Origin: Yinghuangia soli
GTDB taxonomy: Bacteria > Actinomycetota > Actinomycetes > Streptomycetales > Streptomycetaceae
Length of the DNA stretch: 64,000 nt
Assembly (NCBI RefSeq): GCF_021502675.1
Contig: NZ_JAKFHA010000012.1
Location: 62,001-126,000, forward strand
Reading direction: 5' to 3'
The notes under the pieces are model-generated. The model was not told where the DNA came from. It worked only from the letters and a program-made list of their open reading frames with translations, and searched no databases. A program made the position numbers and the translations under genes. Within the stretch, counting starts at the first letter, position 1. Every line of letters starts with the position of its first letter. This document shows positions 8,348 to 13,182 of the stretch, piece by piece.

Positions 8348-9912
8348 ACGGGCCGCCGGCGCAGCTTCCACGCGGCCGCGGCGAGCACCACCGCCGTGTA
8401 CGCGGCCAGGACCAGGAGTCCCGACCAGGGGCTCGAACCGGTGCACCCGTTGTCCGGCAGGCACACGTCGTCGACCTGCGGCACGTCGACGCGGGTGTCC
8501 TGGACCCCGAAGCCCGCCACCGGAGTCGCCCGCATGATGAACCGCGAGACCTCCAAAGGCAGTCCGGACACCAGCACCTGCGGCAGCACCATCACCACCA
8601 CGAGCAGCGTGACCGCCGCGGCGGTGTTGCGCAGCAGGGCGCCGAGTCCCAGGGCCAGCAGCGCGACCAGGGCGAGGACCGCGGCCGTGCCGACGATCGC
8701 CCGCAGCGCGGGACCGTCCGTCCAGGCCACGTCCGGGAACATGGGCGGCCGATGCCCGGCATCGCGCAACGCCTTGATCCCCAGCGCCGCCGAGACCGCC
8801 GCCGCGACCACGCCCACCGCGAACACCGTCCCGGACAGCACCACCGACTTCGCGGCCAGCACCCGGCCGCGCCGCGGGCTCACCGTGAAGGTGGTCCGGA
8901 TCATGTCCTTGCGGTACTCGGCGGTGATGAACAGGACTCCCAGGGCCGCGAACGGGATCAGCCCGATCGCCGCCCCCGACAGGGCGGTCTGCACGAGGTC
9001 CATGTCGGTCTCCGTCGGCGCGATGTCGCCCGACGCGGACACCGTGTGGATGCCGTCCCGCTCCTGCGCCTCCCCTTGGTCGCCCGGCGCCTGGCCGACG
9101 AAGTCGTCCCCGAGTTCGCCGCCTGTGCGGCCCTGCACCGAGAACTGCCCGAAGTCGGCCTGCGAGATGGTCGGGAACGAGCTGGCCGACGTGGTCCCGA
9201 ACGCCCGCTCGTACGTGTTCGCGAACGGCGACGCGACGAACATGCCGACCTCGACCGTCCCCGGCAGGCCCTTGAGCCGGGTCGAGCCGACCTTGTCCCA
9301 GGAGACCCCGTCCGCCGACTCGTAGCCGGTCACCAGATCGCCGGCCCGGACCAGCCGCAGCCAGCGCGGCACCTCCGGCTTGGCCGCACTGCCGGCCGTG
9401 TCGTGCACGAAGTCCGATTGGAAGCGCACGCCATGACTGCGGGTCAGCATGACCGCGGCGTACGTCGCCCCCGGCTTCGTCGAGGCCTTGACCAGCAGCC
9501 CGGCCTTCGCCCACGGCGCCGGCGTCAGTTGCTTGTCGCCCGGCTCCGAAGCACCGCCGCCCGGTACCAGGCGGTCCACCCGCACAGTCACCGTGCCGTC
9601 GCCGTCGAGCGGTTGGTGCACGAAGCGGAACGAGTCGCTGACCGTGGTGCCGTCCGGCCCGCGCAGGACGTCGCTCGGCCCGTCGCCGCTGATCTCGCTC
9701 CCGTTGGCCGAGAGCAGCGAGATCAGCACCGTCAGCCCGAGCCCGGTGATCAGCACGACGGTCCAGCGCCGCACACTGTGCAGCTTGGTCCACTCGGCGG
9801 CCAGCAGGCGCCCGAAGCCGTCTTTGCCGGGCCCGAGCCGCGACCGGTACGGGGCCGGCGGAGCCGAAGCCGAATCGGTGGGCGGCGGAGGAGCAGGTGC
9901 GGACGTGCTCAT
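8344..9912 (-). CDS. ABC transporter permease with a large extracytoplasmic domain
   Basis: 522 aa. N-terminal cytoplasmic segment, AAEWTKLHSVRRWT, TM1 (about residues 50-68), then about 220 residues outside the membrane before TM2. That insert is beta-rich and reads like a concanavalin/DUF1349-type fold (HDTAGSAAKPEVPRWLRLVR, GYESADGVSWDKVGSTRLKG). The remaining five or so TM helices include EYRKDMIRTTF. The insert is known in Streptomyces exporters but its ligand is not. Its ATG overlaps the ATPase stop (ATGA) and its stop overlaps the next permease start. Confidence 0.85.
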   Translation of the reverse strand: MSTSAPAPPPPTDSASAPPAPYRSRLGPGKDGFGRLLAAEWTKLHSVRRWTVVLITGLGLTVLISLLSANGSEISGDGPSDVLRGPDGTTVSDSFRFVHQPLDGDGTVTVRVDRLVPGGGASEPGDKQLTPAPWAKAGLLVKASTKPGATYAAVMLTRSHGVRFQSDFVHDTAGSAAKPEVPRWLRLVRAGDLVTGYESADGVSWDKVGSTRLKGLPGTVEVGMFVASPFANTYERAFGTTSASSFPTISQADFGQFSVQGRTGGELGDDFVGQAPGDQGEAQERDGIHTVSASGDIAPTETDMDLVQTALSGAAIGLIPFAALGVLFITAEYRKDMIRTTFTVSPRRGRVLAAKSVVLSGTVFAVGVVAAAVSAALGIKALRDAGHRPPMFPDVAWTDGPALRAIVGTAAVLALVALLALGLGALLRNTAAAVTLLVVVMVLPQVLVSGLPLEVSRFIMRATPVAGFGVQDTRVDVPQVDDVCLPDNGCTGSSPWSGLLVLAAYTAVVLAAAAWKLRRRPV

Positions 9913-10865: not shown

Positions 10866-11133
10866 GGCAGCAAAGCTAGGGATCCGGGCCCGTCCGGGTC
10901 GTCACGCAGGGGAGCCGTCTTCGCGGTCCCGGAACAGGGGGACGGGACGCCCGCGGGCATCCCCCGCGCGGGGGACGGCCGAGCGGCTGCCGGGAGTGAC
11001 GCGGCCGCGCCCGGACCCGGCCACAATGGCATTCGTGCAGTTCAGCGCCGCGGCACCCGGCAGAATCGGGCAGCGCACGCGGGCCGGCCGGCCGGCCGCC
11101 CGGGCCGGCGGAGGGAGGAGGGGGAGCAGCGGC
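10866..11133. other. divergent promoter region, exporter operon / two-component system
   Basis: 268 bp without a gene. At the left edge a minus-strand TAGCTT lies 7 nt before the ATPase ATG. At the right edge GAGGGAGGAGGGGG (11111-11124) is a very strong ribosome site for the kinase. The middle is GC-rich and I see no clear operator. Confidence 0.5.
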
Positions 11134-12339
11134 ATGGCAGCACTCCGGCAGCAGCTGACACGCTGCGGACCGCAGTTCGGCGGGGCCGTCCTCGGTCTGC
11201 TCGCCGTGGTGGAGACGCTGAACCGGATGGGCAGCGGCATGGCGCTCGACGACCCCGAGTCCCGGCCTTTCCTGCTGATCCTCGCGCTGCTGACCACCGT
11301 CCCGATCGCGCTGCTGCCCGCCTACCCGACCGCGGTCGGGGTGCTCGTCACCGCCGCTGCGGTGCTCTCGCTGCTGCCGTTCCGGGTGCTGACCGTGCCC
11401 GGCCTGGCCGCCCAGCTGATCGTCCTGTACCACCTCGGCCGGCACAGCTCGCGGCTCTTCGCGCTGGCCCCTTTGCCGGTGTTCGGGGCGTACGCGCTGG
11501 CCGCCTCCGGGGACATCGACCAGGCCGAGCGGACCTATGCGGTGATGGTCGCCCTGCTCGCCTTCGGCGCGGTCGCGGCCGGGCTGTCCCGGCGCGTCCG
11601 CACCGAGGCCCAGGTGCACAGCGCGGCGGCGCAGGCCGTCGCCGACACCATGTACGAGCACGCCGCCCGCGGCGAACGCGCCCGCATCGCCCGCGAACTC
11701 CACGACGTCGTCGCGCACCACATCTCGATGATCGCGGTCCAGGCCGAGACCGCCCGCTTCACCACGGCCGGCATGCCGCCCGAGGGCGCCAAGCGCCTGC
11801 TGGCCATCGGCGACACCGCCCGCGCGGCACTGACCGAGATGCGCAGGCTGCTCGGCGTCCTGCGCGAGGACGCGGGCACCACCGGCGGCCGCAAGCCGCA
11901 ACCCGCCCTGCAGCAGCTCGTCGACCTCGTCGACGAAGCCCGGGAAGCCTCCGGCACGGCCACCCGGCTGATCGTGCGCGGCGACATCGTGCCGCTCGAC
12001 CCGGGTATCGAACTCACCGCGTACCGCATCGTCCAAGAAGCCCTCACCAACGCGCGCCGGCATGCTCCGGGCGCCGCGGTCGACGTCGAATTGCACTACA
12101 CCGGCGGCGCGCTCGCGCTGCGGATCCGCGACAACGGGCCGGGCCCGCGGCGGACCGCCGCGACGGGCACGGCGGCCGCGGCAACCGGGACGGCCGGAGA
12201 GGTCGCGGCCGGGCACGGCTTGGTCGGCATGCGCGAGCGGGCCGCGATGGTCGGCGGGGAACTGCACGTGGGGGAGGCGGTCGGCGGGGGATTCATCATC
12301 GACGTACGCCTGCCCGTCCCGGACGCGGAGACGGCATGA
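11134..12339 (+). CDS. sensor histidine kinase (HisKA_3 / NarL partner type)
   Basis: 401 aa. Five or six TM helices without an extracytoplasmic sensor domain (about 14-150), then the dimerisation box ERARIARELHDVVAHHISMI with phospho-acceptor His190, an N-box ALTNARRHAPG, a G1 box DNGPGP and GHGLVGMRERAAMVGG. This is the DesK-like class that reads membrane state or bound drug through its TM helices. ATG 11134 is set by the strong purine-rich site upstream. Its TGA overlaps an ATG that opens the repeat ladder before the response regulator. Confidence 0.93.
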   Translation: MAALRQQLTRCGPQFGGAVLGLLAVVETLNRMGSGMALDDPESRPFLLILALLTTVPIALLPAYPTAVGVLVTAAAVLSLLPFRVLTVPGLAAQLIVLYHLGRHSSRLFALAPLPVFGAYALAASGDIDQAERTYAVMVALLAFGAVAAGLSRRVRTEAQVHSAAAQAVADTMYEHAARGERARIARELHDVVAHHISMIAVQAETARFTTAGMPPEGAKRLLAIGDTARAALTEMRRLLGVLREDAGTTGGRKPQPALQQLVDLVDEAREASGTATRLIVRGDIVPLDPGIELTAYRIVQEALTNARRHAPGAAVDVELHYTGGALALRIRDNGPGPRRTAATGTAAAATGTAGEVAAGHGLVGMRERAAMVGGELHVGEAVGGGFIIDVRLPVPDAETA

Positions 12340-12425
12340 CCGGGGAGCCCGCAAGACAGGGAAGGCCGCATGACAGGCAGGCCCCTATGACAGGCAAGTC
12401 CGTATGACGGGAGAGTCCGCATGAC
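12336..12425 (+). repeat. 17-bp tandem repeat forming a ladder of mini-cistrons
   Basis: Six 17-bp units begin at 12336, 12353, 12370, 12387, 12404 and 12421. Five of them begin ATGAC; the second has AAGAC. The first ATGA carries the kinase stop and the last ATG is the response-regulator start. From 12370 on, each unit reads ATG plus five codons and then a TGA that overlaps the next-but-one phase of the array; the 12404 unit (M-T-G-E-S-A-stop) ends exactly on the regulator ATG. Each unit also carries a GGGAG- or GGCAG-like Shine-Dalgarno. Confidence 0.85.
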
Positions 12426-13182
12426 CGCACCGGGCCCGGCGGAACCGGGGGTCATCAAGGTCGTCGTGGTCGACGACCACGAGGTGGTGCGCGCCGGGTT
12501 CGCCGGACTGCTCGCCACCCAGCCGGACTTCCGCGTCGTCGGCACCGCCGCGGACGGCGCCGAGGCGGTACGCGTGTGCGCCGCGGAGCAGCCCGACGTG
12601 GTGCTGATGGACGTCCGCATGCCCGGCATGGACGGCATCGAGGCCACCGGCCGCATCGTGGCCGGCCAGGAGCAACGGGATCAGCGCCGGGATCAGCATC
12701 GGGATCAGCACCGGCAGCAGCAGCCGTCCGCGGACGGACCGCGGATCCTCATCCTCACCACGTTCGACCTCGACGAGCACGTCTACGACGCGCTGGCCGC
12801 GGGCGCCAGCGGCTTCCTGCTCAAGGACGTCACCGCCGAGCGGCTGTTCGATGCGGTACGCGTGGTCGCCTCCGGCGAGGCGCTGCTCGCCCCGACCGTC
12901 ACCCGGCGCCTGATCGGCGAGTTCGCCCGGATGCGCCCCAAGCCGGCCGCGACCGCGACGCCGATGGCCGCACTCACCCCGCGTGAGACGGAAGTCCTGC
13001 GGCTCATCGCGGGCGGCATGTCCAATCCGGAGATCGCCGGACGGCTGCTGGTCAGCGAGGAGACGGTCAAGACGCACGTGAGCCGCGTGCTGGCCAAACT
13101 CGGCCTGCGGGACCGCACCCAGGCGGTGGTCGCCGCGTACGAGTCGGGCCTGGTCGTCCCCGGAACCGGCCCGGCCTCCTGA
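12421..13182 (+). CDS. NarL/LuxR-type response regulator with a repeat insertion in the receiver
   Basis: 253 aa. Receiver domain with acidic pair D18-D19, phospho-acceptor D64 (VLMDVRMPGMDG), T113/T114 and K135. LuxR helix-turn-helix at about 185-250 (LTPRETEVLRLIAGGMSNPEIA). Between D64 and the fourth beta strand lies a Gln/Arg/Asp/His-rich insertion (about 83-103) encoded by four 12-bp units at 12673-12720; the family is about 20 residues shorter here. Ribosome site GGGAG lies 7 nt upstream. Partner of the preceding kinase; likely target is the divergent ABC exporter. Confidence 0.93.
   Translation: MTAPGPAEPGVIKVVVVDDHEVVRAGFAGLLATQPDFRVVGTAADGAEAVRVCAAEQPDVVLMDVRMPGMDGIEATGRIVAGQEQRDQRRDQHRDQHRQQQPSADGPRILILTTFDLDEHVYDALAAGASGFLLKDVTAERLFDAVRVVASGEALLAPTVTRRLIGEFARMRPKPAATATPMAALTPRETEVLRLIAGGMSNPEIAGRLLVSEETVKTHVSRVLAKLGLRDRTQAVVAAYESGLVVPGTGPAS

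Follow-up and report, generated by a model that had tools for sequence, protein, structure and literature searches.

Genes that are translationally coupled usually overlap directly or sit only a few bases apart. The −4-nucleotide (nt) stop-start overlap is described as the commonest geometry of coupling (PMC6728339, PMC10666635, PMC12548453), and one study reports for native gene pairs that reinitiation was abolished at 22–23 nt in Haloferax and cut by 80–100% at 38 nt in E. coli (PMC10666635). Repeats at gene junctions have been described as mycobacterial interspersed repetitive units (MIRUs); lengths of 77 and 53 bp are given for those of senX3-regX3, together with promoter activity in the region (PMC4213456), and a paper on variable repeats between rnc and fpg1 of M. 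tuberculosis names differential translation within an operon among the functions proposed for MIRUs (PMC2734929). In Yinghuangia soli, the stop-start junction between a sensor histidine kinase gene and a response regulator gene is itself repeated as a 17-bp tandem array. The locus lies in a stretch of 64,000 nt (contig NZ_JAKFHA010000012.1, positions 62,001 to 126,000) of a 9.7-Mb genome, the whole of which stretch is referred to here as the window. The best reading of the array, which is held to be fairly likely, is that it preserves translational coupling of the two genes through duplication of their junction in a step of 3n+2 nucleotides.

A preliminary description of the locus listed six 17-bp units, five of them with ATGAC. 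Five of the six points of the lattice (12336, 12353, 12370, 12387, 12404 and 12421, spaced 17 bp apart) do read ATGAC, with AAGAC at 12353; complete units, by comparison, number five (12336–12420), the sixth lattice point being the start of the regulator. Compared with itself at a shift of 17, the array has an identity of 0.77 across 90 bases, against a maximum of 0.52 elsewhere in the 64-kb window (90-base segments, step 5, 12200–12500 excluded), and Tandem Repeats Finder reports 12334–12425 with periods of 17 and 34. The kinase stop TGA (12337–12339) sits within an ATGA at 12336–12339, and the gap between kinase and regulator is 81 nt. Upstream, the regulator frame is closed by TGA 12388–12390, and the sole ATG, GTG or TTG from there to the regulator match is that at 12421; thus, the array lies outside the regulator coding sequence. 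Its description as a tandem duplication of the stop-start junction holds, and, by eye, 19 of 21 bases are shared between its last unit and the one junction of a congener (genome G002).

As 17 is 3n+2 (3 × 5 + 2), a frame opened at one ATGA closes in phase at the TGA of the next unit; when the next unit is damaged, the following in-phase TGA is found three units further on, in the fourth unit. The earlier remark that 3 does not divide 17 proves relevant and can be sharpened, in that the unit must be 3n+2. The frames of six to 23 codons, each ending on the TGA within a subsequent ATGA, are present as described, one of 23 codons and three of six (Table 1). On paper, the path from the kinase stop leads from the kinase through the 23-codon frame and a 6-codon frame to the regulator, with ATGA overlaps at 12336, 12404 and 12421, where start overlaps stop as in −4-nt (NTGA) coupling. 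The proposed hopping of ribosomes from kinase to regulator is possible on paper in this form, though not by way of every unit, since the kinase path skips units 2–4. It comprises two mini-open reading frames (mini-ORFs) rather than five because unit 2 (k1) has lost its ATG and TGA, and the 23-codon length of the first frame follows from the lattice, spanning four units of 17. All intact ATG/GTG starts in the array (5/5) reach the regulator through exact ATGA overlaps.

Table 1. Coordinates, within the window, of the two genes, the repeat units and the mini-ORFs of the junction.
Feature	Positions	Strand	Basis
Sensor histidine kinase with HisKA_3 and HATPase_c domains, 401 aa counted from ATG 11134 (the query protein had one extra residue, from 11131–11133)	11134–12339	+	domain matches
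Unit k0, ATGACCGGGGAGCCCGC; contains the stop of the kinase and the start of mini-ORF 1	12336–12352	+	
Unit k1, AAGACAGGGAAGGCCGC; ATG and TGA both lost	12353–12369	+	
Unit k2, ATGACAGGCAGGCCCCT	12370–12386	+	
Unit k3, ATGACAGGCAAGTCCGT	12387–12403	+	
Unit k4, ATGACGGGAGAGTCCGC; holds the regulator's Shine-Dalgarno-like GGGAGAG at 12409–12415	12404–12420	+	
Relay mini-ORF 1, 23 codons; start overlaps kinase stop, stop overlaps ATG 12404	12336–12407	+	
Relay mini-ORF 2, 6 codons; stop overlaps regulator ATG 12421	12404–12424	+	
Side mini-ORF, 6 codons; stop overlaps ATG 12387; off the kinase-stop path	12370–12390	+	
Side mini-ORF, 6 codons; stop overlaps ATG 12404; no separate step on the kinase-stop path	12387–12407	+	
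Response regulator, receiver + LuxR/GerE domain, 253 aa	12421–13182	+	domain matches

Comparison with orthologous junctions carries most of the argument. A search for orthologous pairs gave 307 candidate loci (designated L001–L307), of which 288 passed thresholds of at least 47% tblastn identity for the kinase and at least 55% for the regulator; these were collapsed to 232 distinct junctions. The great majority, 211, are direct overlaps (116 ATGA, 91 GTGA, 2 TTGA and 2 of one base), 17 are complete mini-ORF relays, this array included, and 4 are neither. One of these 4, L267, is a paralog hit and was excluded from the kinase tree and from the set of 20 gapped junctions. Among these 20, 17 have relays, compared with 7.3 expected for shuffled gaps with random phase (P 2.1e-6), and with 9.2 when the phases are given the 35:18 weighting seen in RTGA pairs that are unrelated (P 8e-5). 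On a FastTree phylogeny of 231 kinases, built without the junction codons and with branch support unchecked, junctions switch between direct and non-direct 19 times, with 20 tips being non-direct; most expansions therefore look like separate events, although some changes may be reversals. Relay frames in the other orthologs range from 3 to 49 codons, and array sequences vary between lineages while the relays are retained.

Examples among the relatives illustrate how such junctions may grow. In genus g9, which is taken to be Streptomyces because its member L129 shares a junction with L062 (S. pseudovenezuelae), 17-bp ladders with full relays are found in L132 (5 units by eye) and L135 (6 units by eye), and a first frame of 23 codons is common to both and to the array described here. 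L198, the nearest row to L132, is without an extra unit, as is L152. In another member of g9, L136, a 15/17-bp array lies in frame inside the 3′ end of the kinase gene, extending the C-terminus of the protein, and ends on the regulator ATGA. Other relays with a visible duplication of the junction have units, by eye, of 14 bp (L266), 23 bp (L127) and 38 bp (L119); also by eye, Hamadaea tsunoensis (L083) has one additional 17-bp step in its relay and Nonomuraea basaltis (L080) a relay with two 44-bp units. Within the genus of the present strain, G002 has a plain ATGA, and G001 has a relay frame of 33 codons.

These observations can be accommodated by a simple scheme. Ancestrally, the two genes would have shared a simple ATGA overlap of 4 nt, preceded closely by a Shine-Dalgarno (SD) sequence, like most orthologs, and the SD, spacer and ATGA together would have been tandemly duplicated as a 17-bp unit. 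A step of 3n+2 would keep the kinase stop tied to the regulator start through back-to-back stop-start hops, and selection would keep the coupling, so that expansions breaking the link would tend to be lost. Given an 81-nt gap and the published limits of reinitiation, direct coupling of the two genes is expected to be weak or absent here; the relay would restore a chain of −4 overlaps across this gap. We infer that ribosomes finishing one frame would restart on the next along this chain, and that the coupling is under selection. The array is real, more than a product of chance, and probably a trace of selection for translational coupling. A relay built in steps of 3n+2 would also explain how junctions could lengthen to 80 nt or beyond with the link intact.

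A second question is what drives translation of the regulator at this locus. At the six lattice sites, in order, pairing with the anti-SD sequence amounts to −6.6, −7.1, −8.4, −8.1, −3.5 and −9.3 kcal/mol, against a background with a median of −3.7 and a best tenth at or below −7.7 kcal/mol. The SD-like core that had been ascribed to each unit is consequently not clear at 12404, where pairing is no stronger than background. The array could also contain a promoter or operator that serves the regulator, as has been reported for the intergenic region of senX3-regX3, which bears MIRUs and has promoter activity (PMC4213456). Such a promoter in or after the array had been named from the outset as something that would uncouple the regulator; between 11900 and 12700, neither a terminator nor a promoter of the sigma-70 type was found in a search confined to promoters of that type. 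The variation of the array sequences between lineages while the relays stay also speaks against this explanation, and it is regarded as improbable.

Alternatively, the mini-ORFs could encode a functional small peptide or act as a leader or attenuator, a view to which the recurrence of a 23-codon first frame in this array, L132 and L135 lends some support. Conversely, that length is set by the lattice, and the relay frames elsewhere show no such constancy. The predicted RNA fold of 12310–12460 is no better than those of shuffled sequences (z 0.58), and Rfam gives no match at its gathering threshold for 11900–12700; thus, neither structure beyond chance nor membership of an Rfam family, by which a leader peptide, attenuator or riboswitch would be recognized, was found. 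This makes the peptide or leader explanation the most improbable of those considered.

Variation in unit number offers a further perspective. The earlier proposal to compare copy number among close strains can be taken up between species: related Streptomyces, with one genome per species, have 0, 5 or 6 units. On this basis, the array could be a copy-number-tunable element in which intact units would load extra ribosomes, or hops would lose them, so that the number of units would set the kinase:regulator ratio. Such a role is in keeping with the finding that each of the five intact starts leads on to the regulator. The units, however, decay, as at k1 here and, by eye, at three of the four internal sites of L132, and their SD strengths vary widely; moreover, the direction of the effect is unpredictable, as more units could raise the regulator through loading or lower it through loss at each hop. 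Tuning is thus possible but rather doubtful, and it is compatible with preserved coupling. The species with 0, 5 and 6 units form a natural series, on which one could measure directly how repeated reinitiation affects the kinase:regulator ratio.

Arrays of this kind are not peculiar to the present gene pair. In 104 genomes of the order, RTGA lattices at spacing 17 gave 124 matches, against 32 for a reversed-pattern control, overlapping matches being counted. A special preference for 17 bp was considered and rejected, as RTGA lattices are equally frequent at spacing 16. Part of both spacing lists was placed relative to genes, for spacing 16 among the matches listed and with arrays of 8-bp units dropped. 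Same-strand genes flank 25 of the 75 placed arrays at spacing 17 and 18 of 58 at spacing 16 (among the matches listed); at spacing 17, 51/75 are located where an upstream coding frame ends. A strict relay into the downstream gene occurs in 5 of the 75 and in 0 of the 58 (again among the matches listed), and the latter figure is no independent evidence, since with a step of 16 bp no frame can be closed by the copy that follows. Another RTGA array spaced at 17 bp is present in the genome of the strain itself (L443, G000:C1:56577-56665, − strand), outside the set flanked by same-strand genes.

Step lengths were also tabulated for similar RTGA copies between coding frames, in some 3.2 Mb of partly overlapping DNA (L001–L307); the copies had to be at least 70% similar across a maximum of 20 bases. 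This gave 27 hits in 20 merged loci, themselves partly overlapping. The array of the window is not among them, and pairs at 105, 125 and 39 bp are probably due to chance. The steps of these duplications are 3n+2 in 14 cases, 3n in 13 and 3n+1 in 1 (first steps only: 9, 10 and 1), a count that replaces one in which composite steps (64 = 2 × 32, 85 = 5 × 17) had been taken as 3n+1. The sole 3n+1 case, L098, stops, by eye, one base short of another possible start. Without the similarity requirement, all RTGA pairs give an uneven baseline of 129 (3n), 35 (3n+2) and 18 (3n+1).

Several of these results weigh against preserved coupling as the explanation. The shortage of 3n+1 steps is modest when set against the uneven baseline (P 0.017 by steps, 0.097 by loci), and on account of this unevenness confidence in preserved coupling is slightly reduced and that in a neutral origin slightly raised. 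Four-copy RTGA lattices occur in 48/104 genomes at spacing 17, compared with 52/104 at spacing 16 (among the matches listed), and gapped gene pairs in general have no excess of relays: 94 gaps contain 16 complete relays, whereas the means under a base-insertion null are 24.8 (+1), 53.0 (+2) and 15.7 (+3), a null that is asymmetric in that regulator frames equal to that of the upstream gene turn into direct overlaps after +2. At the locus itself, site 12404 stands on the path with an SD pairing at background level, and the strongest SD of the array is the regulator's own; the regulator could therefore be translated independently. Damage to one of the four internal units leaves a relay in 2/4 cases by enumeration, which makes this locus alone weak evidence, and in the relay gaps as a whole 487 of 1082 single-base deletions still keep some coupling. 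Three orthologous junctions are without a strict relay: in L182 it breaks after one hop, and in L255 and L293 the kinase stops without an overlapping start. As an observation in its own right, the kinase-regulator gap of L255 exceeds 300 nt, contains many ATGA/GTGA sites and resembles a decayed array of longer units. Finally, one review reports a 3- to 10-fold reduction of coupling around +40 nt and also mentions coupling at +52 and +62 nt, which RNA unfolding can explain (PMC12548453); with weak coupling over longer gaps on record there, a relay is not strictly required.

Much of this would fit a neutral product of slippage: RTGA arrays arise often, a strong ribosome site (−9.3 kcal/mol) precedes the regulator itself, and the relay would be incidental, as the scarcity of strict relays among placed 17-bp arrays and the lack of a general relay excess suggest. 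What this explanation does not readily account for is the proportion of relays among the gapped orthologous junctions, 17/20, which exceeds the expectation of 7.3 or 9.2. A neutral origin is therefore considered unlikely, and preserved coupling through 3n+2 duplication is retained as the best reading. As RTGA lattices are common and carry no general excess of relays, the claim is confined to this family of kinase-regulator junctions.

A broader idea can be put forward only tentatively and is considered unlikely, namely that stop-start ladders are an evolvable ribosome relay. In such a relay, units of 3n+2 would be gained and lost by slippage, each intact unit would pass on ribosomes and load others, all into the downstream gene, and unit number would set the relative amounts of two proteins that share an operon. 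If true, this would extend beyond the present gene pair to the ladders at L244, L299, L101 and L403. At L244 (8074–8127), three 17-bp units with four intact ATGA sites form a complete relay between two frames, which are presumed to encode a histidine kinase of class I and a regulator of the OmpR type. Ladders of 17/18 bp built on GTGAGCA lie between two frames at L299 (13634–13723) and L101 (− strand, near 9389); the flanking frames, listed as ORFs for L299 only, are taken for ABC permeases. At L403, a ladder lies downstream of a gene assumed to encode a glycosidase, and a ladder of two 32-bp units is seen at another gene pair in L053.

Two further observations concern the flanking genes of the array. 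In NCBIfam, none of the 8 matches of the kinase (0/8) and none of the 25 regulator matches listed (78 in total) reached the curated cut-off. Within the regulator gene, a 12-bp tandem repeat at 12662–12722 encodes an insert rich in Q, R, D and H, and the receiver-domain match is broken into two stretches.

Among known systems, NTGA coupling supplies the elementary step, as each hop in the array is a −4-nt overlap and SD-like sequences lie upstream of most sites. The array differs in that the overlap is multiplied, so that the connection between two full genes passes through mini-ORFs built from their own junction. A second parallel is offered by short upstream ORFs that supply a coupled gene with ribosomes (PMC12548453), in that a short ORF would bring ribosomes to the next start; here, however, the short ORF begins on the stop of a full upstream gene, and two are chained. 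No report of a tandemly duplicated stop-start junction was found among the titles and opening lines of abstracts of open-licence papers on coupling, overlaps, repeats, two-component systems and MIRUs, which is weak evidence of absence.

By analogy, the closest precedent is that of the MIRU repeats between mycobacterial senX3 and regX3. Both arrangements combine −4 overlaps with a frame-compatible unit of 3n+2, 17 bp in this array and 77 and 53 bp in the MIRUs. MIRUs are described as 40–100 bp long, scattered at many loci and apparently mobile (PMC12548453, PMC4213456, PMC2734929), whereas the unit here measures 17 bp and is the local SD-ATGA junction. A 161-bp query containing the array matched its own genome at E ≤ 0.001 only at the place of the array, among the 40 of 116 first-look candidates that were scored. 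Judged by its sequence, that is, by its 17-bp unit, its derivation from the junction and the lack of a second genomic match among the candidates scored, the array is not a MIRU. It may nevertheless work like a MIRU relay, and the lengths cited for MIRUs (77 and 53 bp) fit the same 3n+2 principle.
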